Below are positions 1-19,793 of a stretch of 23,341 bases of DNA, piece by piece; within the stretch, counting starts at the first letter, position 1, and the number at the start of each line of letters is the position of its first letter. Source of the stretch: a virus; the IMG/VR virus record IMGVR_UViG_3300025137_000302, positions 1-23,341 of that record; one strand, written 5' to 3'. Made by a program: the position numbers and the translations under genes. A model generated the notes under the pieces. It was not told where the DNA came from and searched no databases. It worked only from the letters and a program-made list of their open reading frames with translations.

Positions 1-3000
1 CCAGACTTGGAGTCTACAAATGAGCAAGAACGAATTAATCGAAGCATCAAAGGATCTCGTATCTCAGGAGATGCAAGGTCAGACAGAGCAAGAGTCGATA
101 GAGTCGCAACAGGATCGGGCAATGTCAGAGGCGAGATTCCAGAGGGCCAAGAAGCTGACTTTGGAACGCCGAAGCCAACAGTTGATGAAAACGGCTTAAC
201 TCGCCTAATACATTACTCTCCTATAGTAGGGCTGGACACCATCAGCCCAAGAGAGCAACTAACAAACAACAGGATGCGCGGAGGAGAGCGGGAACGGAGT
301 GTATTGTTCCCCAAGATCTATCAAGCGAGGTCTTACTTCGGCATGAATGTCGGTGAGGCGAATGGGTATAATCAAGAGGCCACTGTAGGCAATAACGTAT
401 ACGAAACTCAAGTACCTGTTGATTCATTATACGATTACGACAAAGACCCAGAAGGCTTTATTACCAAAGCGTCTAATTCCGTTGATGACAACATCATGGA
501 AAGAACTTGGAACAAGCCCAAGCAATTCATAACAACAACAGCCGAAAAATCCATAAAGGATGCTGGTTACTCTGGTTACTGGAGTAACTCAAGAATGGGT
601 ATGGTTGCGGCCATGTTCAATGATACTGTTGTGAAGCCAGAAGGCTCTATAGAAAAGCCCGTAAAAAGATCTGCAAGAACAGCAACCATAGATGTACCTA
701 ATGTAAATAACGTTGACGGGGCTAGGATTAGCCAAAGGTTCCCTAAAGGTGCTTCAGCGACAGAAGACCCTATAGAAGAAATCCTTCAATTGGGCGCTAA
801 TGATATAATTAACAATCCTAAACTGCTTGCCAGAACCGCCGAGATTGTACGAGGGTACAATATAATAACTGAGGAAGAGGCAGCTTCACTTGGCGACAAG
901 GAGTTGGTCGAAACTCTTATAGAGAGACTTTCTTCTAACCTTGAGTTTGTTTATGACAACGTCCCAGAGGGGACAAGAGAAAGATCAAAGCTTTGGTATG
1001 TCGGCGCTAACAGAATAGCAAATGAAAACGCCTTAAAGTACAGCGAAGAGTCTGGCTCCCCGGTATCTATTGAGCAAGCCGCTGCTGTAATGGCTGCCCT
1101 AAGTCCACAGAAGGATTGGTATCAGAATGTCTCTTTAGGTGAGCGGCTTATAGACATATACAAAACCAAAATGGATTTTGTGCCGACCCCTGAGATGGAA
1201 GCAACTGCCCGAAGAATATTTCCAAAAGATGTGCATCGGCCAATGCTTGATATTATATTCAGGCAGGGGAGAAACATGCCCCTTTCTGAGTACGCCGATG
1301 CGCCCCTTCTGCAAGCTATGTTTATACGATTGTATGATGAAACATATAATGACCGTGGATACTATATCGTTTCTCCTGATGGACAGAACATTGGCTGGGC
1401 CAGAAATGCAAATGGGTCTAGGTCAAGGGTTGCTTGGGGTTCTAATAAAGAGACAACAAAGGCAGTTATGGCTTTAACCAATCCTGAATCAATCTCTGCG
1501 GAGATGGGCGACAGGCATAAGGTTAGAAACTTCTTTAATAATATAGCTGCTCCATTCTCTCAGGACGGAGATGTAACATCGGATACCCACGCTGTAGCCG
1601 CTGCTCATCTAAAGCCATTATCTGGCTCGTCTACAGAAGTTCATCACAATTTCGGCACATCACCAGTAGCGTCAAAAAGAGATGAGAACTGGAGAGGGGC
1701 CGTTTCAAACTCAGGCCCTCTCGGTGTGAAGGGTACATACGCTCTTTACGTTGAGGCACACAGAAGAGCCGCAGCTAGAAGAAATGTTCTCCCTAGAGAG
1801 ATGCAGTCCATAACATGGGAGGCTGTAAGGGGATTGTTTACCCCAGCGTTCAAGCAGAACAAAAATAATGTTAGGATGATTGACCGTATCTGGAATGATT
1901 TCAGGGCTGGTCAGAAAACAATAGAGGAAGTAAGAGAGGAAGTTTTAAATGAAGCAGGTGACAAAGGAAGATTTCGTCCACCAAGCTGGGAGGGACCCGA
2001 TAGTGGAAGCATTAGCAGCCCTGAACTTGCCGTTGACCCGACAGAACTATCTGGAAATGTCGTATCCAGAAGCAATCCCATCGATTACAGCGGAGATGGA
2101 GTCGGAACTACCGGAGGAACTCCTAATGCCGAAACAAAATATAGTAAGCGGTCGGTAAGATACGTTCCATCGTTAGAGCAGGGAACAGGACCACTCATAT
2201 CAAACAACGCCATGCTGAAGGCGTCAGAGCAATCTTACGATAGGATAACGTACAACAACGTAGCTAGAGTTCTTGGAAAGCTTTACTCAAAGGTGTTTGA
2301 CGAAAAGAAAGCACGGGCTTGGGAAGCTAAGACAGAACGCTTTGTGACTAAGTTTCAGGATGCAATGCTTCCTGTGGGCAAGCTTATGGACGAGCTAAGG
2401 TCTGATGGACTTAGCATTCCAGACGCAATGGATGTCTACATGAGGGAAGAGCTTGCACAGGGCCTTATGGGCGCTAGGCTAGACGAAAACAAAGCTAATT
2501 TATACGAGCCATTAACAGACACTATAAAGCAGATAGAAGTTGATCAGGCAAAGATTGATCAACTTGCAAACGTGTCTAGATTTTTTGAGGACGCTAGAGG
2601 GGCTTATGACCCAAAACTGGCCATTGCTGATGCTTATCTTTATGCACTCCACGCGAAAGAAAGAAATGCATATGTTTTAGCTAGGAACAAAACAGGGCTT
2701 GGGTCAGGAATGTCAGACGGAGAGGCTGATGCGATACTAGCGTGGGTAGACTCTCTGAATGTCCAAAGCAAAAACACTTTAAACGGCATAAAAAATACCG
2801 TAGTACAAATTGTACAGAACACAAATGACGTAAGAAGAGAAGGCGGTCTTATGGCTGAGGAGTACAGCTTCTCAAACTATGTGCCTTTGCGAGGCATACT
2901 TGACCCAGAAGAAGACCTTTCAGAGGATCTAGATAGCGTTCCTAGGATGGGGAGAAAGAAAAGAGACAACCTTTACGGAGGCACGGCTTATCAAGACCCA

Positions 3001-5040
3001 AGAATAACAACGGGTAGAGGAACTGAGTACGCTGAAGACATTATAGCAAATGTCATGGTTCAGAACTCTAGGTCTATTGTAGCGGCTGAGAGAAACAAAG
3101 TCGGTCAGGCATTCTTAAATATTATTGATCCAAAGATCATGGACCCTGATGCCGAGTATATAATGGAAAAGGATAATAGGGACGGCATAGCAATTATAGT
3201 CGATCAAGTAACTCCTGACATGCAAGAAAATGTTCTAAAGGTAAAGGTTAATGGCAGACAAGAGCCTTACAACATTCTTATAAGAGACAACAGGGTCGCC
3301 AGAGCCATGAGGGGCGCTGGTGGGGATGGAATCGAAAGAGGCGGCGCTGTAGTCAGGTATATGACAAAGTTCAACAGATACCTCTCAAACATTAACACAA
3401 CTTGGAACCCAGAGTTTGCCATCACAAACTTTTTCAGGGACTTGGAGACTGCTGGGGTAAACATAGGCCAGTACGATCAAGAGGGTATTAGCAGAGAGGT
3501 AATGAAGAACGCCGCACCTGCCGTAAAGGGAATCCTCGCTGTCACCAGAGAAGGAGGATTTGAGGGGTATGACAAAACAAACTGGACAGACGTATTTAAT
3601 GACTTTGTTTCTGCGGGCGGAAAGAACTCTACCAACCAAGTTGATAGCGTTAAAGATCAAATGGAAAGCATCAAAAAGGTTCTTGATGAGGTTTCCAATA
3701 ACAGCATAAAGGGGAAGCTGGGCCTTTCTAGGAATGGCTTTCTTTATAAAATTGGCGGGTTCTTAGACGCTTACAACACGGCTGTTGAAAATGGAGTCCG
3801 AGTTGCAACATATCACGCCCTGTTGAAAAGAGGGTTTAGCAAAGACAGGGCAGCTCAAGCAGCCAGAAACGTAACAGTAAACTTTGCAAAGCAGGGGGAA
3901 GAAAAAGCCCTTATGAATGCTTTGTTCCTCTTCTACAATGCATCAGTGCAAGGATCTATGGCCCTGTTTAACGCTGGCATAAGGTCATCAAAGGTACGCA
4001 ATATATGGGGAGGAATGATTATTGCTGGCGTACTATTGGATCAATTTGCCGCTGCGGCTTCAGGAGACGAAGATGAGGACGGTGTAAGCGACTACGATGA
4101 GCTAGGTCAGTATACTCTTGAGCATAACATAATATTCCCTACATTTGGGCTTGTGGAACAAAAGTTTTTAAAAATACCTTTAGGGTACGGGCTTAATACG
4201 GCAGTCAATCTAGGTCGATCCATGAGTAGAGTTCAGCGCGGAGAGTACACCCCTGCTGAAGGCTTTAACTCTACATTTGGCACATTAGCAGAATCTCTTA
4301 ACCCTCTAGGAGACACTAACTGGGAAAATGCATTAGTACCTACTGTATTTGATCCGCTTATAAGCTTAGCTGTAAACAAAGACTACAAAGGCGACCCTAT
4401 CGTAAAGGAAGCATCTCCTTTTGGTGTCCAGAAGCCAGACAGTCAACTGTACTGGTCTAACACAAGCGCCCTATTCAAGGGCATAGCTAAAGCTGTAAAT
4501 TCTGGCACAGGCGGCACAGAGATAACCCCCGGAATGATAGACATTTCGCCAGAAACAATAGACTTCTGGGCGCAATACTTTACTGGCGCAGCAGGAGCAT
4601 TTGCTCTTAGGACTGCTGAGTCCCCCTCAAAGACGATTGAGTCATTCAGAGGCGACCTTGAAGGTGATCTAATAAGGGAAATACCATTTGCCAGAAAGTT
4701 GTTCACCTCACCTTCTTCAAGAGAGGACACAGGCCAGTTTATAGAAAACAGGGATAAGGTTCTAAGGGCGGCAAAGGAGCTTCAGTTCTCTTTGCAGTCT
4801 CAAGACCCAGAGAGAGCCTCTGAGATAAGAAAAGAGTACGCCAACGAGTTAAAGATTTATGGTCAGCTAAAGGCCATGAACAACTACAGAAACAAGCTTG
4901 TCAGAAACAAGAACAAGGTTCAGTCAAGCAAGACAATACCAGAAGAGCAAAAGAAGGCTATCATAAGAAGCCTAAGAGACAAGATACAGGTAATAGAAAA
5001 AAGAGCCGCAATCATTATGAGGAATGCTGGCGTAAGATAA
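1..5040 (+). CDS. Giant phage polyvalent protein (5' end outside window)
   Basis: The reading frame is open from base 1, so the true start lies upstream; a TTG at base 7 is not convincing. About 1,680 residues are visible. The N-terminal 50-220 residues contain HYS...GL..ISP followed by YFG and a later AGYSGYW, which resembles the ADP-ribosyltransferase-like domains seen at the front of phage polyvalent proteins. Residues about 270-640 hold a separate globular region with a GANRIANENA / AALSPQKDWYQN signature seen in phage proteins of unknown function. The C-terminal half has the features of the LPD38-type large polyvalent protein domain: NINTTWNPEFAITNFFRDL, LFLFYNASVQG, a hydrophobic stretch and an acidic GDEDEDGVSDYDEL motif. 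The last 150 residues are charged and helical. Its place at the downstream end of a rightward unit suggests an internal or ejected virion protein. Family assignment is by eye; the ART assignment is the weakest part. Confidence 0.75.
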   Translation, partial: PDLESTNEQERINRSIKGSRISGDARSDRARVDRVATGSGNVRGEIPEGQEADFGTPKPTVDENGLTRLIHYSPIVGLDTISPREQLTNNRMRGGERERSVLFPKIYQARSYFGMNVGEANGYNQEATVGNNVYETQVPVDSLYDYDKDPEGFITKASNSVDDNIMERTWNKPKQFITTTAEKSIKDAGYSGYWSNSRMGMVAAMFNDTVVKPEGSIEKPVKRSARTATIDVPNVNNVDGARISQRFPKGASATEDPIEEILQLGANDIINNPKLLARTAEIVRGYNIITEEEAASLGDKELVETLIERLSSNLEFVYDNVPEGTRERSKLWYVGANRIANENALKYSEESGSPVSIEQAAAVMAALSPQKDWYQNVSLGERLIDIYKTKMDFVPTPEMEATARRIFPKDVHRPMLDIIFRQGRNMPLSEYADAPLLQAMFIRLYDETYNDRGYYIVSPDGQNIGWARNANGSRSRVAWGSNKETTKAVMALTNPESISAEMGDRHKVRNFFNNIAAPFSQDGDVTSDTHAVAAAHLKPLSGSSTEVHHNFGTSPVASKRDENWRGAVSNSGPLGVKGTYALYVEAHRRAAARRNVLPREMQSITWEAVRGLFTPAFKQNKNNVRMIDRIWNDFRAGQKTIEEVREEVLNEAGDKGRFRPPSWEGPDSGSISSPELAVDPTELSGNVVSRSNPIDYSGDGVGTTGGTPNAETKYSKRSVRYVPSLEQGTGPLISNNAMLKASEQSYDRITYNNVARVLGKLYSKVFDEKKARAWEAKTERFVTKFQDAMLPVGKLMDELRSDGLSIPDAMDVYMREELAQGLMGARLDENKANLYEPLTDTIKQIEVDQAKIDQLANVSRFFEDARGAYDPKLAIADAYLYALHAKERNAYVLARNKTGLGSGMSDGEADAILAWVDSLNVQSKNTLNGIKNTVVQIVQNTNDVRREGGLMAEEYSFSNYVPLRGILDPEEDLSEDLDSVPRMGRKKRDNLYGGTAYQDPRITTGRGTEYAEDIIANVMVQNSRSIVAAERNKVGQAFLNIIDPKIMDPDAEYIMEKDNRDGIAIIVDQVTPDMQENVLKVKVNGRQEPYNILIRDNRVARAMRGAGGDGIERGGAVVRYMTKFNRYLSNINTTWNPEFAITNFFRDLETAGVNIGQYDQEGISREVMKNAAPAVKGILAVTREGGFEGYDKTNWTDVFNDFVSAGGKNSTNQVDSVKDQMESIKKVLDEVSNNSIKGKLGLSRNGFLYKIGGFLDAYNTAVENGVRVATYHALLKRGFSKDRAAQAARNVTVNFAKQGEEKALMNALFLFYNASVQGSMALFNAGIRSSKVRNIWGGMIIAGVLLDQFAAAASGDEDEDGVSDYDELGQYTLEHNIIFPTFGLVEQKFLKIPLGYGLNTAVNLGRSMSRVQRGEYTPAEGFNSTFGTLAESLNPLGDTNWENALVPTVFDPLISLAVNKDYKGDPIVKEASPFGVQKPDSQLYWSNTSALFKGIAKAVNSGTGGTEITPGMIDISPETIDFWAQYFTGAAGAFALRTAESPSKTIESFRGDLEGDLIREIPFARKLFTSPSSREDTGQFIENRDKVLRAAKELQFSLQSQDPERASEIRKEYANELKIYGQLKAMNNYRNKLVRNKNKVQSSKTIPEEQKKAIIRSLRDKIQVIEKRAAIIMRNAGVR
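845..860. repeat. Exact TTGTAC-N4-GTACAA palindrome inside the giant gene
   Basis: Exact copy of the recurring spaced palindrome, spacer GAGG. It lies within the coding sequence of the giant polyvalent protein, where it encodes part of IVRGYN, so it is not in a promoter position. Confidence 0.7.
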
Positions 5041-5068
5041 AGGCCACCCACTTTAAACGGATGGCCTT
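5040..5068. terminator. Hairpin between convergent operons
   Basis: Arms AAGGCCACCC (5040-5049) and GGATGGCCTT (5059-5068) pair with one mismatch around a 9-base loop. The hairpin begins at the last base of the giant gene and faces the end of the leftward operon. Neither side has a strong T tract, so it may be a weak or protein-assisted terminator or a processing stem. Confidence 0.6.
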
Positions 5069-5084
5069 ATCACGACTTACCTAT

Positions 5085-5100
5085 TTGTACCCCAGTACAA
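5085..5100. promoter_or_regulatory. Exact TTGTAC-N4-GTACAA palindrome between convergent genes
   Basis: Exact copy, spacer CCCA. It abuts the stop codon of the last gene of the leftward operon (stop at 5101-5103) and lies 17 bases from the hairpin at 5040-5068. A site between two 3' ends cannot be an ordinary promoter operator, which suggests a stoperator-like or structural role. Confidence 0.7.
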
Positions 5101-5295
5101 TTATTTCTTAGCCTCATCAAACTTAGAGTTAACCCAGTTAATTATATCTTCGTGTCTCCAGCGTTTAACTCTCTCTGATATGACAATAGGCTTCGGGAAT
5201 GTCTCATCGTTCTTTAGTATCTTTTCAACAAGACGGTGACTCTTCAAAGACAATATGTTTGCAACGTCTCGCTGACCTATAAAATCATTGTTCAT
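5101..5295 (-). CDS. AlpA/excisionase-like small DNA-binding protein
   Basis: A 64-residue protein, last gene of the leftward recombination operon. The sequence FIGQRDVANILSL is followed by a FPKPIVI segment and a closing KRWRHEDIINWV, the usual layout of AlpA-like winged helix-turn-helix proteins: HTH, a FPxP turn, then a basic W+..DI..W helix. Such proteins act as transcriptional activators or excisionase-type architectural factors. The start at 5295 is chosen because its ATG overlaps the upstream TGA as ATGA; an upstream in-frame ATG (5316) would add seven residues inside the previous gene. It is one of two candidates in this window for binding the TTGTAC palindromes, one of which lies directly after its stop. 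That link is inference only. Confidence 0.75.
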   Translation of the reverse strand: MNNDFIGQRDVANILSLKSHRLVEKILKNDETFPKPIVISERVKRWRHEDIINWVNSKFDEAKK

Positions 5296-5774
5296 TTTTG
5301 ATAACCCTGCTTCCATCTCACGAACTCCTCTGTTATCGCCTTGAACTTTTCCCTAGCCTCAGAGTTATTCTTTAACTCTGCCCTGCTGGTGATGCCCAAG
5401 ACTGATCTTAGTGTTTCAGTTACCGTCTTCTCTCTCTCTCCAAAAGAGCTTTCTATATAATCAGCGTCTGGCATGTACTCTCGTTTATGCAAGAAGTCTG
5501 CAAACTCATCGTTCCTGCACAACATACCGGCACTAGCAACCATCTTATCGACTTCCCTTTGATTCTCACTTATCTCAGGTTGATCATCGTCACCCAGTTT
5601 AACCATTGCTACCATGTAGCGAGAGCCTACCCAGTCAGTATGTAGACTAGGTGGGACATCATTAGGATGCAAGGCAAGTCTTAGTATAGTGCCTTGCTTG
5701 CTCTGTGACATAGAGGTCTTAACGGCCTCAAAGTTAACTGCGGCAGTCCTTACATCAACATTATCATTTTCCAT
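5292..5774 (-). CDS. Conserved phage protein of unknown function (SLHTDWVGSRYMV type)
   Basis: A 160-residue soluble protein. The segment VKTSMSQSKQGTILRLALHP followed by DVPPSLHTDWVGSRYMVAMV and GDDDQPE looks like a conserved family common in phage early operons, in which a small beta-rich N-terminal domain is followed by a helical tail; residues 80-100 (GMLCRNDEFADFL) are also typical. I do not know its function. Residues 105-160 are charged and helical. The start is fixed by a strong ribosome-binding site, AAGGAGAG five bases before the ATG. It overlaps the previous gene by 11 bases and the next by ATGA, so it is translationally coupled within the operon. Confidence 0.75.
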   Translation of the reverse strand: MENDNVDVRTAAVNFEAVKTSMSQSKQGTILRLALHPNDVPPSLHTDWVGSRYMVAMVKLGDDDQPEISENQREVDKMVASAGMLCRNDEFADFLHKREYMPDADYIESSFGEREKTVTETLRSVLGITSRAELKNNSEAREKFKAITEEFVRWKQGYQK

Positions 5775-6015
5775 ACTGGCTCTCCTTTAGAAAAATCTCT
5801 GATGTCCTACTGTCATAATGGTCACAGTCGGTAAAGTTTCTCACATGAGTGGTTCGCTTGATGCCCTGATCAACTCGCTCCCAAGTGACCATCTCCTGAC
5901 GGAATACACTTTCAGTGTTGTCTGGGAAGAAGTCTTGAGGAAGGGTTTTCGACAAATGACACAGCCCCTTTGTGGGGAAGTAGCATAAGTCTTTTGAATT
6001 TTTCAAAGACTTCAT
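5764..6015 (-). CDS. Conserved hypothetical phage protein
   Basis: An 83-residue protein overlapping both neighbours (ATGA at its start, 11 bases at its end). The segment VTWERVDQGIKRTTHVRNF followed by a D-HYDSRTSEIF stretch looks like a conserved small phage family, and two cysteines occur near the N terminus (C11, C19). No enzymatic motif is visible and I cannot assign a function. The continuous overlap pattern with upstream and downstream genes supports it as a genuine cistron. Confidence 0.65.
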   Translation of the reverse strand: MKSLKNSKDLCYFPTKGLCHLSKTLPQDFFPDNTESVFRQEMVTWERVDQGIKRTTHVRNFTDCDHYDSRTSEIFLKESQYGK

Positions 6016-6359: not shown

Positions 6360-6366
6360 TTGTCTC

Positions 6367-7445: not shown

Positions 7446-8119
7446 GCCGCTTTCTCCTTATTGGCTTTTGACTCTGGGAATTGATGGCTGTGCTTAGCAA
7501 AATTAGCCACAACCGCGTTGTAAAGAGCTTCGTCTCCTGACTCTAAAATATTCAAAGCAACCTTGTTCTCTCCCCAGAACGCAGTTAGCTTTTGATATGT
7601 ATCGCACTCGCTGATAAATGAATTGAACACATCAGCCATTACAGAATAACTTGCCTCTTCCTTAACCTCTCCAGAAGAAGACTTTATCGTGGCCTTCTTC
7701 TCTTTCTTCTCTTCGATCACGCCTTCTGGCAAATCCTCGCCAGCATAGATGTAGTGACCCAACCCATGAAACGCCAAACACTTAGTCAGACACCTCTGTA
7801 AGGCTGTGTTTACTTGAAAGCTATTGGGCTGAGATACAGATTTGTTCGCGTAGTCAAGAACAGGCATAACCTCTGTTTGACTCTCATCTTCTATATCAAC
7901 GGTTACTGACACAAATGCATACCCTGCCGGATCAATCATGTACGGCAAGGTGCAATCATTATTTGCACTAGAGTACAAATTTTTCGTGAACGTAGTCTTG
8001 GGGTAATGCTTCTTCACAATCCCCCACGCCCATGCCCAGCTTATATAGCTAAGGCCATTCTTTTTTTCGATGTGATCAGACACATCAACCTTAGATAAGG
8101 TTTCCCATACGCTACTCAT
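7442..8119 (-). CDS. Single-strand annealing protein, Sak3/DUF1071 family
   Basis: A 225-residue protein with the hallmarks of DUF1071: LSYISWAWAWGIVKKHYP near the N terminus, an MIDPAGYAFVSVTVDIE stretch, MPVLDYANKSV, and the strongly conserved NTALQRCLTKCLAFHGLGHY followed by IYAGEDLP. Family members are Rad52-like annealing proteins that pair complementary single strands in phage recombination. The C-terminal 90 residues are charged and linker-like, ending in a helical domain. The start at 8119 has GAGGAGAAGG five bases upstream and lies one base after the nuclease stop codon; an in-frame ATG at 8173 would run back into the nuclease gene. Confidence 0.88.
   Translation of the reverse strand: MSSVWETLSKVDVSDHIEKKNGLSYISWAWAWGIVKKHYPKTTFTKNLYSSANNDCTLPYMIDPAGYAFVSVTVDIEDESQTEVMPVLDYANKSVSQPNSFQVNTALQRCLTKCLAFHGLGHYIYAGEDLPEGVIEEKKEKKATIKSSSGEVKEEASYSVMADVFNSFISECDTYQKLTAFWGENKVALNILESGDEALYNAVVANFAKHSHQFPESKANKEKAA
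7963..7978. repeat. Near-exact palindrome TTGCAC-N4-GTACAA inside the annealing gene
   Basis: One mismatch to the recurring TTGTAC-N4-GTACAA palindrome, spacer TAGA, with flanking A/T on both sides as in the exact copies. It lies within coding sequence, so constraint by the protein is a rival explanation. Confidence 0.4.
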
Positions 8120-8120
8120 A

Positions 8121-9008: not shown

Positions 9009-9031
9009 GTTGTCCCTCCCTGTGAGTTTTT

Positions 9032-9060: not shown

Positions 9061-9080
9061 TAAGGAATTTTGAGGACGAT

Positions 9081-11572: not shown

Positions 11573-11618
11573 CACTCCGCATGGAATGTATGATAGTATT
11601 TAATCTTTAGAGAAAAAA

Positions 11619-11885: not shown

Positions 11886-11891
11886 CCGCAT

Positions 11892-11907
11892 TTGTACTAT
11901 GGTATAA
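11892..11907. promoter_or_regulatory. Near-exact palindrome TTGTAC-N4-GTATAA
   Basis: One mismatch to TTGTAC-N4-GTACAA, spacer TATG. It begins 7 bases after the stop of the DUF6378-like gene and 28 bases before the terminator at 11935-11966, again at the 3' end of a unit. Confidence 0.55.
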
Positions 11908-11934
11908 ATAAAATAGGTCACTCCAAGACAAAAA

Positions 11935-11966: not shown

Positions 11967-11968
11967 GA

Positions 11969-12151: not shown

Positions 12152-12152
12152 A

Positions 12153-12568: not shown

Positions 12569-12569
12569 T

Positions 12570-12809: not shown

Positions 12810-12978
12810 AAAAGTCTCCCAAAGCGCACTCGACTGTTTCTTGAGCCTCAAGAGCCATGATAAGCTTTTGCCTGTTATCCTTTTGGTAAGGATGCATAAG
12901 CTGCTCAATGATCGTATCAAGACCAACCTCAATAGCGTTCAATTCGGCTGGCGTTAACCTAAGATTTATTACAGTCAT
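12802..12978 (-). CDS. Small hypothetical protein (58 aa)
   Basis: A short gene found by direct reading. The 58-residue protein begins MTVINLRLTPAELNAIEVGL and ends VECALGDFYD; it is helical with a LTPAELNAIEVGLD-type N-terminal helix typical of small phage regulators or partner proteins. Its ATG overlaps the previous stop as TAATG with GGGAG seven bases upstream; its end overlaps the next gene by 8 bases. Coding in this frame fits the gapless packing better than the overlapping longer frame on the same strand. Confidence 0.7.
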   Translation of the reverse strand: MTVINLRLTPAELNAIEVGLDTIIEQLMHPYQKDNRQKLIMALEAQETVECALGDFYD

Positions 12979-13268
12979 TATTGTTCTCCCTTGAAGTGAT
13001 CTTTTAATGTGTTAAAGCTATGATCTAAATAAGCCTCGACATCAGCAAGCCTAAAAAAATTTCTAGGTTTCATGCTTTTTTGGGGCTGTCTTATTACAGG
13101 AAAATTTGGATCGTTTTCACAAAGCCTTTGTAAGGTGCGTGAACTTAGCTTTTTCCTTCCAGACTGGTCTAAAACTATTACCAACTCTGCAATTTTATAA
13201 ATGCCTAAAGCCCTCCTTTGATCCGCACTAAGTTTACAACAAGCGTCATAAATCTCTTCATTTGTCAT
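12978..13268 (-). CDS. HTH protein (AlpA/MerR-like DNA-binding)
   Basis: A 96-residue protein. The C-terminal two thirds show KLSSRTLQRLCENDPNFPVI followed by RNFFRLADVEAYLDH, the helix-turn-helix, FPxI turn and final aromatic-D/E-V-xAYL helix of AlpA/excisionase-like proteins; the N-terminal 35 residues are helical (TNEEIYDACCKLSADQRRAL). It is likely a regulator of this cluster. The start at 13268 overlaps the previous stop as ATGA; an upstream ATG (13292) lies in the previous gene. It is the second candidate for binding the TTGTAC palindromes. Confidence 0.75.
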   Translation of the reverse strand: MTNEEIYDACCKLSADQRRALGIYKIAELVIVLDQSGRKKLSSRTLQRLCENDPNFPVIRQPQKSMKPRNFFRLADVEAYLDHSFNTLKDHFKGEQ

Positions 13269-13480
13269 TTTGCCTCTCCCTTTTGTGACCAATATTCATT
13301 CCAATGCTCAGACATAGCATCAGTCTTTTCCTCATCGGACATATGAGCCAACAAATCAAACGACTTGTTGACTACCAGTTTATCTTGAAGATCGGTTATA
13401 TCTTCACATCCGCCGATATGTTTTGAAACCTCATCAGCAAACTTATCTTCCAAGTCTAATATCCAACTACTCATACCCAT
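13265..13480 (-). CDS. Small acidic hypothetical protein (71 aa)
   Basis: A 71-residue acidic helical protein with two short motifs, WILDLEDKFADEVSKH and HMSDEEKTDAMSEHWNEYW. No domain recognised. The start at 13480 overlaps the previous stop as TAATG with AAGGGGAG eight bases upstream; a second ATG six bases on is possible. It ends by ATGA overlap with the HTH gene. Being co-translated with a DNA-binding protein, it could be a partner or antagonist, but nothing in the sequence shows this. Confidence 0.65.
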   Translation of the reverse strand: MGMSSWILDLEDKFADEVSKHIGGCEDITDLQDKLVVNKSFDLLAHMSDEEKTDAMSEHWNEYWSQKGEAK

Positions 13481-13689
13481 TACACTTGCTCCCCTTCGAT
13501 CTCATAATCTAAATAGCCGCAAGCGGCATCAACGCCCAACAAAAACATTTCTTTATCTTCCTCTGTATCGAAAGCATATGTTTCTGTCTTGTCCTGACAT
13601 GTTCCCCATACAATAGTGATAACGTGATTTGCGTTATCAATTTGCTCTTGGGTTTGAGCAATACAGTTTATGATTTGCTTTTGTACCAT
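13480..13689 (-). CDS. Small hypothetical protein (69 aa)
   Basis: A 69-residue protein beginning MVQKQIINCIAQTQEQIDNA and ending YLDYEIEGEQV. The pattern of short strands (VITIVWG, TYAF) and acidic C terminus suggests a compact alpha/beta domain, function unknown. Its start codon lies inside the spacer of a TTGTAC palindrome (13681-13696), between a GGGAG-type ribosome-binding site and the first codons, so binding at the site, or a hairpin formed by it in the mRNA, would directly affect its expression. Confidence 0.65.
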   Translation of the reverse strand: MVQKQIINCIAQTQEQIDNANHVITIVWGTCQDKTETYAFDTEEDKEMFLLGVDAACGYLDYEIEGEQV

Positions 13690-13696
13690 CGTACAA
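13681..13696. promoter_or_regulatory. Exact TTGTAC-N4-GTACAA palindrome overlapping a start codon
   Basis: Exact copy, spacer CATC; the ATG of the 13480-13689 gene is contained in spacer and edge (13687-13689). The preceding gene ends at 13706. The same CATC spacer occurs in the copy before the AAA+ gene (16772-16787). Confidence 0.75.
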
Positions 13697-13705
13697 ATCT
13701 CCCTT

Positions 13706-14521
13706 CTAGTTTTCCATCATTTTGGTTAAGTGCCGGACAGTCCGGCGGTTCATAAGATTAAAGGCTTTCGACAGGCTCTCGCCAAAGCTATGCGGGATCA
13801 CCGTTTCATCGCGGATCATATCAAACAGCGGATGCAGGTCATCGTGATCACTTGATTTGTGGGTGATCATCCAGCCATTCTCAGTAAAGCCCATCTTTTT
13901 GTTGAAGCCGACAACGGTCACTTCCCAAGCATTCAAGCCAGCCTCATCTACATACTGAACATCGACAGGCTTACACCTCATGACAAACCTTTTGCCTTTA
14001 GGTGATTGAATGATTGAAAAGCCTTTTAGGTGTATTGTCTTGAACCATGTGATCGGGACAGGAACAAGATTGCTCATATTGTAACGACCTTCATTATCGA
14101 CCTCGACTTTGGAGTCCCCATTGCTGGCCGAAAAAATCTCAGATGTTGATCTGGGGAATGCGCTATCGATAACCCTTTGTGCCTGTCTTTTTGATTTTGT
14201 TTTGGCATTCTTTAACGGGCTGTAACCGTCTATTTGTTTTCTTTCCTCACGATACCGTCTGATGGCCTTGCCAGCATCCTCGCAATAGTGTTCAAAAGCT
14301 TTCCAGATATTTTCTGAATTGCTTTTTGCGAGCCTGTCTTCGATAGAATGAATTTGCTCTTTTACATCAGCATCTGCTCTGTAACTTGAGTGAGTGCCAT
14401 TCTTAATGTAATGAGCGATAACTTTCATCGGAACTCCCATGATACCGCCCGACCAGTGGGCTTTGAAATTCTCCAAATCACTAAGCAGGAACTGAATATT
14501 TTTATATGTATCTGTCTGCAT
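13706..14521 (-). CDS. Unknown protein of the AAA+/VWA module (271 aa)
   Basis: A 271-residue soluble protein, fourth member of the module after the VWA protein. Residues 1-110 are helical and charged (FLLSDLENFKAHWSGG, IHSIEDRLAKSN, AIRRYREERKQ); residues 150-230 look beta-rich (LVPVPITWFKTIHLKGF, then FVMRCKPVDVQYV, WEVTVVGF); the C terminus is basic (MNRRTVRHLTKMMEN). I recognise no family. The start at 14521 follows GGAGAC-AAAA; the ATG four codons earlier belongs to the ribosome-binding site. Location points to a substrate or adaptor of the ATPase module, as inference. Confidence 0.7.
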   Translation of the reverse strand: MQTDTYKNIQFLLSDLENFKAHWSGGIMGVPMKVIAHYIKNGTHSSYRADADVKEQIHSIEDRLAKSNSENIWKAFEHYCEDAGKAIRRYREERKQIDGYSPLKNAKTKSKRQAQRVIDSAFPRSTSEIFSASNGDSKVEVDNEGRYNMSNLVPVPITWFKTIHLKGFSIIQSPKGKRFVMRCKPVDVQYVDEAGLNAWEVTVVGFNKKMGFTENGWMITHKSSDHDDLHPLFDMIRDETVIPHSFGESLSKAFNLMNRRTVRHLTKMMEN

Positions 14522-14535
14522 TTTTGTCTCCATTG

Positions 14536-14557
14536 GGTGACGGCCTAAGCCGCCACC
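14536..14557 (-). terminator. Hairpin enclosing the stop codon of the VWA gene
   Basis: Arms GGTGACGGC (14536-14544) and GCCGCCACC (14549-14557), one mismatch, with a CTAA loop that contains the TAG stop (14545-14547). On the minus strand no T tract follows; the ribosome-binding site of the next gene comes a few bases later. It may control termination, readthrough or mRNA stability. Confidence 0.6.
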
Positions 14558-15696
14558 TCTATGCGTGTTGTTTCACCAAACGGTGCATCATTACACCGCT
14601 CATCAGTTGATACCCAAAGCACCGGATAGTGCGGTGCAGTGTCAGGAAAATCGAATATTCCCATATCGGTCAGGTAAACGAAATTATCGACAGGCAAACA
14701 ATTATCATCGATGTATTTGAACACCGGCTCTACTCGCGTACCGCCCCGACCATTGCATTCGATCTTGTCGATGATATCGCCCTGACCGTATGTCTTGACC
14801 GACTGGATTTTGCTGTCGCAAGTTATGACAGTAAGGCTCTTGGGCTTGTGATCTTCCGACATATTGTTGAGTTCCCCCAGAAATTGCTGGAGTTCAACGG
14901 TTCCGACTGATCCACTAGTATCGACAGCCACCACCACATCACCGACACCGATCTTGTCAACGGCTGGCATGTATATTCCTTGGGTGTACATGACCTTTTT
15001 ATTACAACGCCTGAACGTGTAATCATCAGGCTGATCACCACCGATAAACCGGTTGAACACATCACGCCAGTCAACCTCAGACCGCCGCATTTTGTCGATC
15101 AGTTCTTTAAGCTTGCCCGACAGTTTACCGACAGATTTTGCATTCGATGCCGCAAGCATAACGCGCTGATCATTAGATGCCTTGGCCTGTTCTATTTCGG
15201 CCTTGGAAGGCTCACCACCGTCCTTACCTTGCATCTGACCTACATCACCACCCCACGGCTGCTTGGAAGGCTTCTTATCCTTTTCTAGGCGGCTTAAAAG
15301 CCTATAGACCTGAAGCCATGTCATGCCGGAATATTGAGGGTCATACAAACCACCTTCGGGCATTTCCATGCCATCTTCCTTTAGGTAAGCATTGATGACA
15401 TAATCCATAGCCATGTTCTGCAACTCATGGTTCGTTGGCTGGCCATCTATTGTCTTGACCGGAATGCAATGGTTCAGCATCGCGTGGCCAACCTCATGGG
15501 CTATGACAAACTGCAAACCTTTATCAGTCAGGCCATCAGCAAACGCTGGGTTCCAACGTATGCATTTGCCATCGGTTGCCATAGTGGCAATCGTGTCATC
15601 TTCGATGAACGGCAAGCCCAAGGTCAGTGAACCCCAGAACGGCTTGTCCAATACTAGTCTTGTTTTTGCTCTAGCAATTTTGGTTTCTATATCCAT
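14545..15696 (-). CDS. VWA / metallopeptidase-like protein (DUF2201 type)
   Basis: A 383-residue protein with two domains. Residues 45-105 carry RWNPAFAD, FVIAHEVGHAMLNH (zinc-binding HExxH at 67-71) and NMAMDYVIN, the metallopeptidase-like N-terminal domain of DUF2201 proteins. Residues 250-383 form a von Willebrand A domain with MIDAS residues DTSGS (259-263), a GRGGT Thr (320) and YLTD Asp (344). The linker (150-190) is Lys/Gly/Ala-rich. In bacteria such proteins pair with MoxR-type ATPases to remodel or mature partners. The GGGAGA site five bases upstream sets the start. The protein ends VAA with the stop inside a hairpin. Confidence 0.88.
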   Translation of the reverse strand: MDIETKIARAKTRLVLDKPFWGSLTLGLPFIEDDTIATMATDGKCIRWNPAFADGLTDKGLQFVIAHEVGHAMLNHCIPVKTIDGQPTNHELQNMAMDYVINAYLKEDGMEMPEGGLYDPQYSGMTWLQVYRLLSRLEKDKKPSKQPWGGDVGQMQGKDGGEPSKAEIEQAKASNDQRVMLAASNAKSVGKLSGKLKELIDKMRRSEVDWRDVFNRFIGGDQPDDYTFRRCNKKVMYTQGIYMPAVDKIGVGDVVVAVDTSGSVGTVELQQFLGELNNMSEDHKPKSLTVITCDSKIQSVKTYGQGDIIDKIECNGRGGTRVEPVFKYIDDNCLPVDNFVYLTDMGIFDFPDTAPHYPVLWVSTDERCNDAPFGETTRIEVAA

Positions 15697-15716
15697 GTCA
15701 ATCTCCCGAAAGAAGA

Positions 15717-15733
15717 GGGGGGAAAATCCCCCC
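15717..15733 (-). terminator. G6/C6 hairpin between AAA+ and VWA genes
   Basis: Six-base G and C arms (15717-15722, 15728-15733) with an AAAAT loop. On the minus strand it is followed by TCTTCTTTC and then the ribosome-binding site of the VWA gene, so it may be a partial terminator setting the ratio of the two products. Confidence 0.65.
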
Positions 15734-15737
15734 AGTT

Positions 15738-16751
15738 TTACAGCATCAATTCTTTGCCGTCCGAAAGTAAAAACTTGCGGAATGCATCAGTCTTTTTAAT
15801 GCTTGGTGTGCGGTTCATTGCATCCCTGATGCTGAATACCGCGAACTCTTTGTGCGGTAATCTTTTCAGGTACTGAATAATGTTGCCGATATTCTTATCG
15901 TTGGCTCGACTACTCAGAGCCGCAGACACCGCATAGCAAACGGCTGGGTCTTCAGCAATTGGTGCGCTATCGGGGTTGGCAATCAGTGCGTCAATGTCTG
16001 GGCAGCTCTCATAGACCTTTTTGTATCCCATGAACTCAGCACATGCACCACGGCCTACTTGCCCAGCCACCGCTTCATTCTCATTAACCACATCAAGCTT
16101 GAAACCCATGATGGTATCGACACGTTCCCATGATCTGGGTGATGGGCAAGCATCAGCATCACGATCAAACTTGTGCAGCAACTCAGGCCGAAAGCGCAGG
16201 AAGCCGGTGATCAAAGGCGATACCCCGACTGAATTGTAGTAGGCCACCGCGTCTTCAAGATCGGCGTCTACAGAGGTATATAACAGTCTATCTTTTACAT
16301 GCGATGGAAGTTGATTTGTGCCAGCGCGATCCGACATTTTGTTGCCAGCACATACGATAGCCCAACCGTCAGGCAGTCTATGTTCGCCAATCCGGCGTTC
16401 ATTAATTATGACGGCTGATATGTTGAGGCAGGCAGTCGGAGCCTGCGCTAATTCATCAAGGAATAAAATTCCTTCGCCCTCAGTAGGCATCCAATCTGGC
16501 CGTAGGCGTTTCATTCCATCACCATCATTTATAAGCCAGCCTGCGAGTTCCCCTGCATCGTACTGGGCAAGGCTGACCGTCTTTAATGATATCCCACGGT
16601 CTTCAGCGATTTGCTGAACAATGGTAGTTTTACCAAGACCGGCTGATCCGACAAGGTAAGGGATTGGACGCTGTGCATCACGCCCATTTGAATGTTTTAC
16701 TTGGCTGTCGATACATGCCTCGACAATGGCTCTTGCTTGCGAAATCCGCAT
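15738..16751 (-). CDS. MoxR-type AAA+ ATPase
   Basis: A 337-residue AAA+ protein. Walker A is GSAGLGKT (35-42), Walker B GILFLDE (94-100), sensor 1 is in the CAGNKMSD segment (Asn 137) with an Arg in HVKDRL (155) as finger candidate; LKTVSLAQYDAGELAGW is the usual pre-Walker-B insert of MoxR proteins. MoxR ATPases act as hexameric remodelling chaperones with VWA partners, encoded here directly downstream. The start at 16751 is chosen because GGAGAC lies four bases upstream; the ATG at 16811 falls within the hairpin ending the previous gene and would translate through the palindrome at 16772-16787, adding 20 residues. Confidence 0.88.
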   Translation of the reverse strand: MRISQARAIVEACIDSQVKHSNGRDAQRPIPYLVGSAGLGKTTIVQQIAEDRGISLKTVSLAQYDAGELAGWLINDGDGMKRLRPDWMPTEGEGILFLDELAQAPTACLNISAVIINERRIGEHRLPDGWAIVCAGNKMSDRAGTNQLPSHVKDRLLYTSVDADLEDAVAYYNSVGVSPLITGFLRFRPELLHKFDRDADACPSPRSWERVDTIMGFKLDVVNENEAVAGQVGRGACAEFMGYKKVYESCPDIDALIANPDSAPIAEDPAVCYAVSAALSSRANDKNIGNIIQYLKRLPHKEFAVFSIRDAMNRTPSIKKTDAFRKFLLSDGKELML

Positions 16752-16771
16752 ATCAGTCTCCACTAATATTT

Positions 16772-16787
16772 TTGTACCATCGTACAA
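16772..16787. promoter_or_regulatory. Exact TTGTAC-N4-GTACAA palindrome upstream of the AAA+ gene
   Basis: Exact copy, spacer CATC, flanked by T and A runs. It lies about 20 bases upstream of the chosen ATG (16751), in the 66-base gap after the hairpin at 16811-16828, so it is well placed to control the AAA+ gene. Confidence 0.75.
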
Positions 16788-16810
16788 ATTTTGGTTAAGG
16801 TTGGTAGGCA

Positions 16811-16828
16811 AAGCCGCCTAAGCGGCTT
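16811..16828 (-). terminator. Hairpin enclosing the stop codon of the 16818-17528 gene
   Basis: Arms AAGCCGC (16811-16817) and GCGGCTT (16822-16828) with loop CTAA that contains the TAG stop. On the minus strand it is followed by TTTG. Its arrangement is the same as the hairpin ending the VWA gene, and in both the last codons encode Ala-Ala. Confidence 0.65.
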
Positions 16829-17528
16829 CCCCTTCAAGTTGTGCGGTCATGGCATTCACTGCATCATTTTCTGATTTAGTGATATCACCAGCGATTTGAC
16901 TGGCTTGCCTCATTGAAGCCCTCTCTCTCAGCGCATCTTCTAACTCACTCTGAAAGGTTTCAACGATCGCCAGAAAAGCATCTTCAGTCTGGTCTTTTTC
17001 ACCAAGGCCACCGATCCACTTGTCACCGGCGACACGATTTCCATCCGCATCTTTTTTGGTGGATCGTTTACCGACAAGCTTATCGACAATCAACTGGGTT
17101 GCAGTCTTGTTTGGTTCATCAGCAACGGCCTTGATCAGTTTGGCTTCGCTGGTGATATCGGCGTCTTCAAACACATCACCCACCATTGTCGGCGTAATGT
17201 TGTCGCCGTTGATCCCGAAAATTCTAATAGCTCCGGCTGTGTTTTTAATTAGCTTGTTGGCCATACCATCAGAGATTTCAGTTTCTTTCATGTTGATCAA
17301 TTGCATCTTGAGATCACTGCTAATTTTGGGTGGCAGATTTCCCTTTTGCAAACCATGCTTGGCAACGCATGAAATGATCACGCAGTAGGTATCAAGCTTA
17401 CGGCTGTTAGCTTCTTTGCTGCTCTCTTTAGAGTTTTCCTTCAGAGCCTTGATAGTCTTTTCATTCTCACCGATGACAGTAAGGTTGGCTGTATCGATAG
17501 GTAAATTTTTCGCAGTAGATGTCTGCAT
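16818..17528 (-). CDS. Unknown protein of the AAA+/VWA module (236 aa)
   Basis: A 236-residue charged, largely helical protein encoded just before the AAA+ gene. The N-terminal 50 residues are Lys/Ser/Glu rich (KALKENSKESSKEANSRKL), the middle has CVIISCVAKHGLQKG and repeated helical segments, and the C terminus is Ala/Glu rich, ending EGEAA. No catalytic motif is seen and I cannot name a family, but unnamed proteins of this size and composition recur beside phage MoxR/VWA pairs. The start at 17528 follows GGAGAC-TGTC; the ATG four codons earlier is part of the leader. The stop lies in a hairpin loop. Confidence 0.7.
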   Translation of the reverse strand: MQTSTAKNLPIDTANLTVIGENEKTIKALKENSKESSKEANSRKLDTYCVIISCVAKHGLQKGNLPPKISSDLKMQLINMKETEISDGMANKLIKNTAGAIRIFGINGDNITPTMVGDVFEDADITSEAKLIKAVADEPNKTATQLIVDKLVGKRSTKKDADGNRVAGDKWIGGLGEKDQTEDAFLAIVETFQSELEDALRERASMRQASQIAGDITKSENDAVNAMTAQLEGEAA

Positions 17529-17572
17529 GACAGTCTCCATCTTTAAGGTTGAAATATAGCAGGACGCTATGA

Positions 17573-17588
17573 CCCAGCACTGGCTGGG
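17573..17588 (-). terminator. Hairpin in the 95-base leader before the module
   Basis: CCCAGC-ACTG-GCTGGG, perfect six-base stem, in the gap between the two small upstream genes and the module. Flanking AGGACGC and GCGTGTCCT can extend it imperfectly. No T tract follows, so an attenuator or RNA-processing role is as likely as termination. Confidence 0.5.
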
Positions 17589-17623
17589 TTTCGGGCGTGT
17601 CCTACGCGCCCATCATCAGATAG

Positions 17624-17854
17624 CTATATGGTAATGTATTCGGTCAGGCGTAGTGTGCCTTGCTTCACAAGCTTGCCGTTTTGCATCAGGTAGTAGGCAT
17701 GGAAGCGGCGGTTTTTGTATACCGCGATCATCTCAGGCTTTTCCCCAAACGCCTTGTTGCAGCGAAAAATGTACGCACCCAATTCCTTAATCGTTGGCTT
17801 GAGTGGGTACAAAGTTGTCTTGCCATTATCGTTCAATTGATTAGCTGAATACAT
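17624..17854 (-). CDS. Hypothetical protein (76 aa)
   Basis: A 76-residue protein with alternating short strands (MIAVYKNRRFHAYYLMQNG, KLVKQGTLRLTEY) and several aromatic and basic residues. Unknown family. It starts by TAATG overlap with the upstream gene and is the second cistron of the right-hand leftward cluster, ending before a leader with a hairpin. Confidence 0.65.
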   Translation of the reverse strand: MYSANQLNDNGKTTLYPLKPTIKELGAYIFRCNKAFGEKPEMIAVYKNRRFHAYYLMQNGKLVKQGTLRLTEYITI

Positions 17855-18048
17855 TATGCATTCCCCTTCTTTCCGAACCTATTAAGGTAATGCCGGTAGG
17901 CATTCCCCTTTTTCTTTGGTTTACGTCTGGAAATAATCTCAGCCAATGTAAGCTGAAAAACTGGTGTGGCTTGTTCAAATGCAATCTGTTTCACTATGTC
18001 AGTTTTGTTGGCTGCATCAGGCTTTGGAATGAAAGTTACTTTTTTCAC
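17854..18048 (-). CDS. Small basic protein (64 aa), first gene of the leftward cluster
   Basis: A 64-residue basic protein; residues 40-64 (ISRRKPKKKGNAYRHYLNR, then FGKKGNA) are rich in Lys, Arg and Gly and suit nucleic-acid binding. No domain recognised. The start is GTG (18046-18048) with GGGAG seven bases upstream. A short open stretch (18045-18080, MMRYAKQGATP) ends in TGA overlapping this GTG. The next gene starts by TAATG. Confidence 0.6.
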   Translation of the reverse strand: MKKVTFIPKPDAANKTDIVKQIAFEQATPVFQLTLAEIISRRKPKKKGNAYRHYLNRFGKKGNA

Positions 18049-18082
18049 GGCGTGGCTCCCTGTTTCGCGTATCTCATCATAA

Positions 18083-18100
18083 CTGGGGTACGATCCCCAG
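18083..18100. other. Hairpin CTGGGG-N6-CCCCAG
   Basis: Perfect six-base stem (18083-18088 with 18095-18100) and six-base loop TACGAT, 35 bases upstream of the GTG of the first leftward gene. It could shape the leader of the cluster; no T tract follows. Confidence 0.4.
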
Positions 18101-18116
18101 CGACAGGTTTTGTTAC

Positions 18117-18414
18117 AGTGTCGGGTCTCTCTCGACTGCCCGATTACAGCGACACTAGTGCCGCCTCAGTATTACCACCGCATCCATTATCCTAGTGTCA
18201 GGCCTAATCGATTTTTGCTTGGGCGTAGGCGTATTCAGATGCCATCAGAGCCGTAGTGCGGTAGTGTCCAGTCTTCAGGGTTGCTATCCCCTCGCCCCAA
18301 TGGGCGGTTAAATCAGTAGCGGTGGCCTCCTAAAAAATTTGACTAAAAAAACTTATTTCTTTTCGTAGCACAGATAGACAACCCATGCAAACACTAAAAG
18401 CATCTAATGACACT
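18117..18414. repeat. Five copies of AGTGTC / GACACT
   Basis: AGTGTC at 18117-18122, 18194-18199 and 18263-18268, and its complement GACACT at 18151-18156 and 18409-18414. Some copies are extended (CTAGTGTC, GACACTAG). Five in about 300 bases is far above the roughly 0.15 expected by chance for both strands, though noticed after the fact. Spacing is irregular, so they are not classical iterons. Confidence 0.5.
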
Positions 18415-18417
18415 AAT

Positions 18418-18433
18418 TTGTCAGAGGGTACAA
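18418..18433. promoter_or_regulatory. Degenerate palindrome TTGTCA-N4-GTACAA
   Basis: Two mismatches to the recurring palindrome, spacer GAGG; the second half is exact. It shares the same TTGTCA variant half with the site at 18873-18888, so the two may be lower-affinity versions. Confidence 0.4.
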
Positions 18434-18615
18434 ATGTAAGCCGTTTGTGCCTCCTATATAGTAGACGATCCAGAAACCATTATTATTGTGTGACCATGAT
18501 ATTTTTTTCCTCTCAAACAGTAGACGTTTCAGAACGCAAAATTATTCACTGCTATTTTATTTTATTTTGAGACTGTGACAAATCTGCAACACCAACCCTC
18601 AAAACACCCCAATAT

Positions 18616-18633
18616 TTGTTTGTACACAAACAA
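18616..18633. repeat. Inverted repeat TTGTTTG-TACA-CAAACAA
   Basis: Perfect seven-base arms with a four-base centre in the AT-rich part of the intergenic region, next to a second TTTGTT. It contains one TTGTAC half-site and may bind the same or another regulator. Confidence 0.45.
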
Positions 18634-18696
18634 GTTTGTTCACCATGTGTTCACGGTCTGGAACAAAACGTGAAAACGAGCGAGGTTGATCCGTGA

Positions 18697-18730
18697 GTAG
18701 GGGCTGGCGAAAGCCGTGTATGATCCCTAC
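18697..18730. other. Nested stem with a GAAA tetraloop
   Basis: Outer arms GTAGGG (18697-18702) and CCCTAC (18725-18730) enclose GGC-GAAA-GCC (18706-18715). A GNRA tetraloop on a short stem inside a longer one suggests a small structured RNA or leader element, but there is no further evidence for a gene. Confidence 0.35.
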
Positions 18731-18740
18731 CAAAAACACC

Positions 18741-18778
18741 TTTAATCGCTGTATGAGCTTCTATGAGCGTTTAATCGC
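18741..18778. repeat. Paired direct repeats TTTAATCGC and TATGAGC
   Basis: TTTAATCGC at 18741-18749 and 18770-18778 encloses TATGAGC at 18752-18758 and 18762-18768. The nested arrangement could be a binding site or a local duplication near the putative terS promoter. Confidence 0.4.
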
Positions 18779-18797
18779 CATGAACAAAAGGGGAACA

Positions 18798-18826
18798 TTG
18801 CCATTTTGGGGCTTATTGGCTATATG
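18798..18826 (+). promoter_or_regulatory. Candidate sigma70 promoter for the packaging/late unit
   Basis: TTGCCA (18798-18803, five of six to TTGACA) is followed after exactly 17 bases by TATATG (18821-18826, four of six). Transcription would start about 18833, 118 bases before the terS ATG, with the degenerate palindrome at 18873-18888 downstream of it. Confidence 0.45.
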
Positions 18827-18872
18827 TGAGGGATAGAGCCGATCTGGTGCGATTTAGGGTGTAATGTTATCA

Positions 18873-18888
18873 TTGTCACAGAGTACAA
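18873..18888. promoter_or_regulatory. Degenerate palindrome TTGTCA-N4-GTACAA before terS
   Basis: Two mismatches to the recurring palindrome, spacer CAGA, second half exact. It lies between the candidate promoter at 18798-18826 and the terS start at 18951, where a bound protein would block elongation. Confidence 0.45.
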
Positions 18889-18950
18889 ATCCAAAAAGCC
18901 CGATCAAGCGTCAGCGCATTTCGGTGGCATATTTATAGAGGGATAGAGAC

Positions 18951-19430
18951 ATGGGTAAAGACAACGATAAGACAAATCATTTGAAATTGGTTGTTGGTGC
19001 AGGCGATAAGCTAACCAGCAAACAGGAACACTTTTGCCAACTGGTTGCCAAGGGTGAAACCCTGACAGATGCATACAGACATGCCTACGATGTCAGTGCC
19101 AAGACAAAGCCAAGCACAGTCTGGACAAACGCATCTAAGCTGGCCACAGAAAACACCAAGGTGTCACTAAGGATCAAAGCCATTACTGAGGAAATCACTG
19201 CACGAAAGGCGACAGACGATGACCGGTTAAAAATCTGGGTGACTGACCGGTTGAAGACTGAGGCAATGGAAGCTGAGAGTGATAGCGCGCGCGTGGCAAG
19301 CTTAACTCAACTAGGCAGATCAGTCGGCATGTTCAGTGACAGGGTTGAGACAGACAACGTGGCCGAAAGACCAGCGGGTGAAATCGAAGCCGATATTCAG
19401 CGCAGGCTGGCATCGATCCTTGGCGAGTGA
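18951..19430 (+). CDS. terS: Terminase small subunit
   Basis: A 159-residue protein. The N-terminal LTSKQEHFCQLVAKGETLTD with AYRHAYDVSAKT and WTNASKL is the helix-turn-helix recognition domain of the terminase small subunit family; the rest is helical with an acidic C terminus (AGEIEADIQRRLASILGE). It would bind the packaging site and hand DNA to the large subunit, encoded 1 kb downstream. The ATG has GAGGGATAGAG upstream. Small subunits often bind their own gene region, so the repeats upstream may include the packaging site. Confidence 0.9.
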   Translation: MGKDNDKTNHLKLVVGAGDKLTSKQEHFCQLVAKGETLTDAYRHAYDVSAKTKPSTVWTNASKLATENTKVSLRIKAITEEITARKATDDDRLKIWVTDRLKTEAMEAESDSARVASLTQLGRSVGMFSDRVETDNVAERPAGEIEADIQRRLASILGE

Positions 19431-19535
19431 CCCTCCGCATGAAGACTTGCTCCCGGGCTGACCCCCACCTACCCTCATCCCCCCTGTGACAGCATGGCCA
19501 CTCCACACGCACGTACATGAGGTTCTGCACGAGTA

Positions 19536-19760
19536 ATGCCCAATCTTTTCTCAACACCATGCAATATGGAATGCAAGTTTAATGGCCGTATAAAGCCCAC
19601 TGATAGCCTTTGCCTGATCTGTGGTATGACGAGTGCCGAAAGAGACGAGTGGCCCCTTCTGACGGCGTCTGAGGCCGATGCCAAGCATGTTGAGATTAGG
19701 TCTAGACTGGAAACGATATGGTTGATATGGGAACTAATGGAGGAGCCAACACTTCAATAG
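19536..19760 (+). CDS. Small zinc-binding protein, DUF1289-like
   Basis: A 74-residue protein with Cys 9, Cys 13, Cys 26 and Cys 29 (TPCNMEC, LCLICG) followed by MTSAERDEW, closely following the DUF1289 pattern SPCxxxC...CxGCxRTxxEIxxW. DUF1289 proteins are small, cysteine-rich and of unsettled function. The start at 19536 has no good ribosome-binding site, but the frame is closed just upstream and the first cysteine pair lies before the next in-frame ATG. It sits between terS and terL. Confidence 0.65.
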   Translation: MPNLFSTPCNMECKFNGRIKPTDSLCLICGMTSAERDEWPLLTASEADAKHVEIRSRLETIWLIWELMEEPTLQ

Positions 19761-19777
19761 CCCCCCCCCTTTGTAAT

Positions 19778-19793
19778 TTGTACTAGGGTACAA
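19778..19793. promoter_or_regulatory. Exact TTGTAC-N4-GTACAA palindrome after the zinc protein gene
   Basis: Exact copy, spacer TAGG, beginning 18 bases after the stop of the DUF1289-like gene and before the AT-rich tract and terminator that separate terS from terL. Confidence 0.7.

Follow-up and report, generated by a model that had tools for sequence, protein, structure and literature searches.

Lineage-specific palindromes dispersed at conserved gene ends in a group of uncultivated, mostly marine phages, with a candidate phage-encoded binder

Genome-wide sets of operators are known from a few temperate phages. In the Streptomyces phage phiC31, which is temperate and has a known repressor, conserved inverted repeats (CIRs) occur at many places in the genome and are bound by a phage protein. 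The C1 operators of phage P1 and the centromere sites of N15 are likewise scattered sites served by one phage-encoded protein. The stoperators of L5-type phages are numerous and dispersed, lie mostly away from promoters in short intergenic gaps, and have a consensus that diverges between subgroups (PMC6550527, PMC9283540). Each is an asymmetric 13-mer whose orientation matches transcription; the repressor binds it as a monomer, and the phages that carry these sites are temperate (PMC9283540).

We analysed the whole of an IMG/VR record of 23,341 bases (the window). It comes from an uncultivated tailed phage, as a 23-kb fragment, and not from a bacterial genome. The phage group to which it belongs is widespread, mostly marine and uncultivated. 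A palindrome recurs along the window, and a preliminary description had likened this arrangement to the L5 stoperators. We found that the likeness holds for the layout, the adjacency to stop codons and the phage-specific consensus: as in the cluster A mycobacteriophages (L5, Bxb1), the sites are dispersed in short intergenic gaps and their consensus is specific to a subgroup. It does not extend to asymmetry, and probably not to binding by a monomer or to the repressor immunity of temperate phages. Instead of asymmetric 13-mers, the sites here are perfect or near-perfect palindromes of 16-20 bp. Whereas the L5 phages are temperate and have a repressor, no conserved CI-type HTH_3 protein was found among the relatives of this phage, a search of 25 contigs of relatives (which may be incomplete) gave no tyrosine integrase, and no L5-like repressor was recognised. 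The candidate binder proposed here fits no known family. In palindromic form, the phiC31 CIRs are nearer than the L5 stoperators; the P1 operators are asymmetric and the N15 sites serve partition. We found no published description of this palindrome system in a search that had most subscription journals outside its scope.

The word TTGTAC-N4-GTACAA occurs in the window in exact copies at 845, 5085, 13681, 16772 and 19778, with one mismatch at 7963 and 11892, and with two mismatches at 18418 and 18873; all of the coordinates and mismatch counts given previously are correct. Five exact copies are not a chance result, as had also been claimed: a pattern with 12 fixed bases should turn up approximately 0.0014 times in 23.3 kb. 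A control pattern, the palindrome read backwards, has 0 copies in the window. The fuller unit is ATTTGTAC-N4-GTACAAAT, which spans 20 bp. That the sites lie at gene junctions is true of most, the exceptions being 845 and 7963, which are inside genes, and 13681, which falls on a start codon.

The first site, TTGTACGAGGGTACAA (845..860), lies within the gene for an LPD38/DUF7178 large polyvalent protein (7-5040, truncated at the contig end), and the closest relative, G001, has the same word in its LPD38 gene. Relatives have homologues of this protein as long as about 3100 aa, with palindromes inside them. The second, ATTTGTACCCCAGTACAATT (5083..5102), touches the stop codon of an AlpA-like helix-turn-helix gene (5101..5316, minus strand) between convergent genes; G001, G002, G004, G005, G017, G033 and G035 have an equivalent, and class II phages have another word in its place. 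The one-mismatch copy ATTTGCACTAGAGTACAAAT (7961..7980) is within the gene for the single-strand annealing protein (SSAP) Sak; G001, G017, G032, G033 and G035 have it at identical codons, 148 nt from the start, and G002 has it at an equivalent place. Another, ATTTGTACTATGGTATAAAT (11890..11909), lies past the stop codon of a DUF6378 gene and has an equivalent in G001. The remaining window genes upstream of the terminase region include an HNH-type gene (DUF968), RusA, a Toprim-DnaB primase-helicase and, by a weak match, a PD-(D/E)XK exonuclease.

Four minus-strand genes form a group in the order c5, MoxR, vWA and c2. They encode c5, a 240-aa protein of no recognised family (16818..17540); a MoxR-like AAA+ ATPase (phrog_1297; 15738..16751), downstream of c5; its partner, a metallopeptidase with a vWA domain (DUF2201, CobT-like; 14545..15696); and c2, a 275-aa protein, also of no recognised family (13706..14533). 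A copy of TTTTGTACCATCGTACAAAT (16770..16789) occupies the gap between c5 and MoxR, 18 nt upstream of the ATPase start, and a second copy (13679..13698) lies over the start codon of the ORF at 13480-13689, with the 3' end region of the 275-aa gene just upstream; the latter site has equivalents in G002, G004 and G016. A search for MoxR in bacterial genomes, for a host or prophage, gave no match.

Two degenerate palindromes lie upstream of the small terminase gene (TerS). The first, ATTTGTCAGAGGGTACAAAT (18416..18435), is identical in G001, while at a spacing that matches the second, TTGTCACAGAGTACAA (18873..18888), G001 has TATTGTACGAGGGTACAAAT, a homology judged from the coordinate offset. The intergenic region that holds these two weak sites is long (18049-18950) and also contains an inverted repeat of CTGGGGTACGATCCCCAG; it has no Rfam match. 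The last site, ATTTGTACTAGGGTACAACA (19776..19795), is past the ORF at 19536-19760 and before the next genes. The window closes with the small and large terminase genes and the first part of what is probably a portal gene. The terminase module (20480-21988) is akin to that of HTVC023P-type pelagiphages and is joined to an unrelated replication module, an instance of module-level mosaicism. The large terminases of the pelagiphages HTVC023P and HTVC027P are 53-56% identical to that of the window, but their annotated replication module differs and they have no dispersed palindrome above background. Megablast of the window against isolates gave no near match.

Scans for relatives yielded more than 200 loci, and 24 contigs were read across most or all of their length. 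The further dispersed sites that the preliminary description led one to look for in relatives are present, with each lineage having its own word. Contigs with the word of the window have 5 to 13 sites each (at most 3 mismatches in 16). Relatives that do not have this word have a different palindrome that is equally dispersed: AAAGTTAA-N2-TTAACTTT, AAAGTTCA-N2-TGAACTTT, AAAGTTAC-N2-GTAACTTT, AAAGTTTAC-GTAAACTTT or AAAGTGCA-N2-TGCACTTT. A distant relative, L510, has the word AAGGTGCAA-N-TTGCACCTT at 15 sites (at most 4 mismatches), with 0 in shuffles. Altogether there are at least seven distinct words, one per lineage, and about 5-15 sites per phage. Where counts were tested against Markov shuffles, we found 11-14 sites versus 3-6 (in G020, 14 versus 3). 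In class I contigs their own word predominates; AAAGTT-type words have a core in common, and for that reason match one another in part. In a different phage group (L018, L028 and L088; records G042-G044), the palindrome TTGTACG-NN-CGTACAA is dense, with 3-5 copies per 4.7-16.7 kb. L018 has distant homologues of the MoxR and vWA proteins, c5 was not detected in the sequence examined from the three loci, and their palindromes are possibly a parallel system.

The placement of the sites is conserved across these words. Among the relatives, 88 of 134 sites (at most 2 mismatches) lie outside genes, versus 20.3 expected. Different words occur at the 3' ends of homologous genes in 107 concordant between-class pairs, as compared to 37 ± 6.6 in permutations (maximum 61 in 2000) that held the sites per contig constant and left shared ancestry unmodelled. 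Site position is thus kept at homologous gene ends while the words differ, as the preliminary description had thought worth looking for. The gene ends that bear sites include those of the AlpA-like, LPD38, putative capsid (c25), MoxR and TerS genes, among others. Many sites abut the stop codon of the preceding gene or run into it, leaving 10-20 nt before the next start. As a whole, the sites span early and late regions, structural genes included.

Judged by sequence, the palindromes resemble docking sites or operators, set out across the whole genome, for a fast-evolving phage DNA-binding protein with co-evolving specificity. The reading that we favour, with a probability of roughly one half, is that the palindromes are double-stranded DNA sites of a dimeric phage protein, likely c5, that blocks elongation at gene boundaries. 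A phage-encoded dimer would bind each palindrome as duplex DNA; if the binder is c5, contact would be made by the region around its predicted helix at residues 91-108. Specificity would have diverged by lineage, so that the places stayed the same while each lineage came to fill them with a word of its own, and the bound sites may act as stoperators do, halting the elongating polymerase where one gene ends and the next begins. Of the transcriptional roles, an elongation block seems most likely because the sites show no promoter signature and the gap to the following gene is often too short to hold a promoter. Association with sigma70 promoters was rejected, as -10 and -35 hexamers are not enriched near the sites. 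Against a roadblock, some sites lie within genes, where blocking seems costly.

What points to c5 is, in the first place, co-occurrence. In a comparison of gene content among relatives with the primase-helicase and at least 9 kb of sequence, c5 co-occurs with the palindromes and is absent or unrecognisable in most palindrome-free relatives. Eight loci have no detected palindromes. All of these retain the genes for the exonuclease, the primase-helicase and RusA, and TerS or MoxR-vWA is present in some, but c5, c2 and the AlpA-like protein were detected in none of the eight at the standard profile cut-off. With a more sensitive profile, L510, which has its own palindrome, was found to encode, in the syntenic position, a c5 that has diverged (E 2.8e-5), and L504, one of the eight, has a marginal c5 (E 0.0055) along with four weak candidate sites, all in predicted genes. 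L492 first appeared to have c5 and no palindromes. Its c5 helix is of class III, the AAAGTTCA type, and a laxer re-search found 6 class III sites versus 0.8 expected, in this one locus and after the helix was known.

The second line of evidence is covariation. For 32 non-redundant phages, we compared palindrome distance with the distance between 18-residue windows of ten proteins (852 windows), using the mean distance over four core proteins as the correction. The top four of the 852 all fall in c5 residues 82-111 (starts 82-94), with correlations of 0.50-0.54; with permuted palindromes the maximum was 0.38 at the 95% point, and 0.54 was not reached in 500 trials. The core of this stretch is the predicted helix at residues 91-108 (about 85-108; 17217..17270, minus strand). 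By eye, the word TTTGTAC goes with the helix sequence SMANKxxKNAVGA, AAAGTTCA with KEATxKRYxENSVGA (in most cases), AAAGTTAC with KKRYENTIKA, AAAGTTAA mostly with KxLKENxVKF, and AAAGTTTAC with LFKRNxxLF. When class I is left out, the c5 peak is 0.41 (95% point 0.37) and residues 79-102 of MoxR (15738-16751) score higher, at 0.51. Such covariation of MoxR with palindrome class in AAAGTT-type phages is what one would see had MoxR and the palindrome binder adapted to each other. Because palindrome class agrees with the phylogeny of nearly every core gene, covariation is supportive and not decisive, and class monophyly was uninformative for telling candidate binders apart. L206, a seemingly discordant locus, was not decisive either, because its sites are of a class IV-like mixed type.

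The predicted structure of c5 has a pLDDT of 82.5 for the whole protein, and of 85.7 with a pTM of 0.77 for residues 31-155. In this confident model, a domain made up mostly of helices is accompanied by a small pair of strands and, at the C-terminus, a long helix. Neither the whole fold nor the domain has a usable match in the PDB, and one uncultured-phage protein matches the fold. The sequence has no match in Pfam or PHROG, and tblastn found none in HTVC023P, HTVC027P, phage isolates or plasmids. No DNA-binding fold can be recognised in c5, and the case for its role is made by co-occurrence and covariation; with these, we consider c5 the likely and best candidate for the palindrome binder.

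Alternatively, the sites could serve DNA handling, such as genome organisation, segregation or the choice of DNA for packaging, in the manner of dispersed centromere or TerS sites. The absence of a promoter signature and the spread of sites over early and late regions, structural genes too, would suit this, and a stretch of TerS also tracks the palindrome, at 0.49 in the full set. Moreover, the MoxR-vWA chaperone pair adjoining c5 belongs to a type for which a part in the assembly of jumbo phage virions has been proposed (PMC7824862). Packaging or partition nonetheless leaves the strong preference for gene ends unexplained; palindrome-free relatives also have TerS, and ParA or ParB was not noticed, although no dedicated search was made for them. 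On balance we regard such a role as rather unlikely, though a serious rival to the transcriptional one.

It is also unlikely, and somewhat more so, that the operator system is as we propose but its binder is the AlpA-like winged-helix protein beside the 5085 site, which had been put forward earlier. This protein belongs to a recognisable DNA-binding family and is encoded in nearly all palindrome-bearing contigs of the first set that cover the region, and the 3' end of its gene has a site in 8 of 14 contigs. Yet its recognition helix varies widely among phages that share one palindrome, its partial correlation with palindrome distance is -0.02 for the whole protein (best window 0.26, or 0.16 without class I), and it was not detected in L510 despite the 15 dispersed palindromes of that phage. 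The variable helix and the absent covariation weaken the case, and we do not favour this protein as the binder. A tblastn search for it in phage isolates gave no match. The other protein suggested as a binder (12978-13292) is not favoured either: it has no Pfam or PHROG match and falls outside the widely shared clusters.

We think it very improbable that the sites belong to a host regulator, for instance LexA, as was suggested at the outset, or a TetR-type repressor. A bacterial regulator can use the word of the window, since the exact 20-mer ATTTGTAC-N4-GTACAAAT is found in many Bradyrhizobium genomes (loci L313-L392), where its distance to a TTGACR-type hexamer, often TTGTTGACGRGACCTAAT upstream, is constant. 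From sequence, these Bradyrhizobium copies look like an operator at a promoter, used by a bacterial regulator that is unrelated. In the phages, by comparison, the palindrome differs between close relatives and tracks the phage lineage, and the 5-15 sites are mainly at gene ends, away from promoters; a LexA box would be conserved with the host and placed at promoters, whereas these words vary and show no promoter enrichment. The LexA proposal is thus unsupported.

Equally slim are the chances that the palindromes are boundary sequences promoting homologous recombination between phage modules. The location at gene junctions and the Sak and exonuclease recombination genes would accord with this, but such sequences need not be palindromic and several sites are inside genes; moreover, the words differ between lineages, and therefore cross-lineage recombination would not occur at them. 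Finally, that the palindromes work as RNA hairpins on mRNA is scarcely credible and was rejected on a wobble test: although the 2-4 nt spacer between arms would allow folding and stop codons precede many sites, imperfect pairs on the transcribed strand include G-U about as often as A-C (46 versus 43) and so show no bias towards RNA pairing, class III words are near-perfect palindromes that are almost loop-free, and an Rfam scan of the window found no match.

Returning to c5 as an elongation-blocking binder, it is speculation that its MoxR-vWA neighbour remodels it. A broader proposal, which we offer tentatively and hold to be less probable than not, is that c5 founds a new all-helical family of sequence-specific DNA-binding proteins and that these phages, apparently virulent, use it with MoxR-vWA to control transcription of the whole genome, by way of palindromes whose specificity switches between lineages while their positions are kept. 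What distinguishes the present case is that the putative operator sets occur in a phage group with no recognised lysogeny system, and that at least seven specificities interchange at conserved positions. The group would thereby offer a natural series for the joint change of a DNA-binding protein and all of its genomic sites, and the finding singles out one candidate protein whose fold is not recognised.
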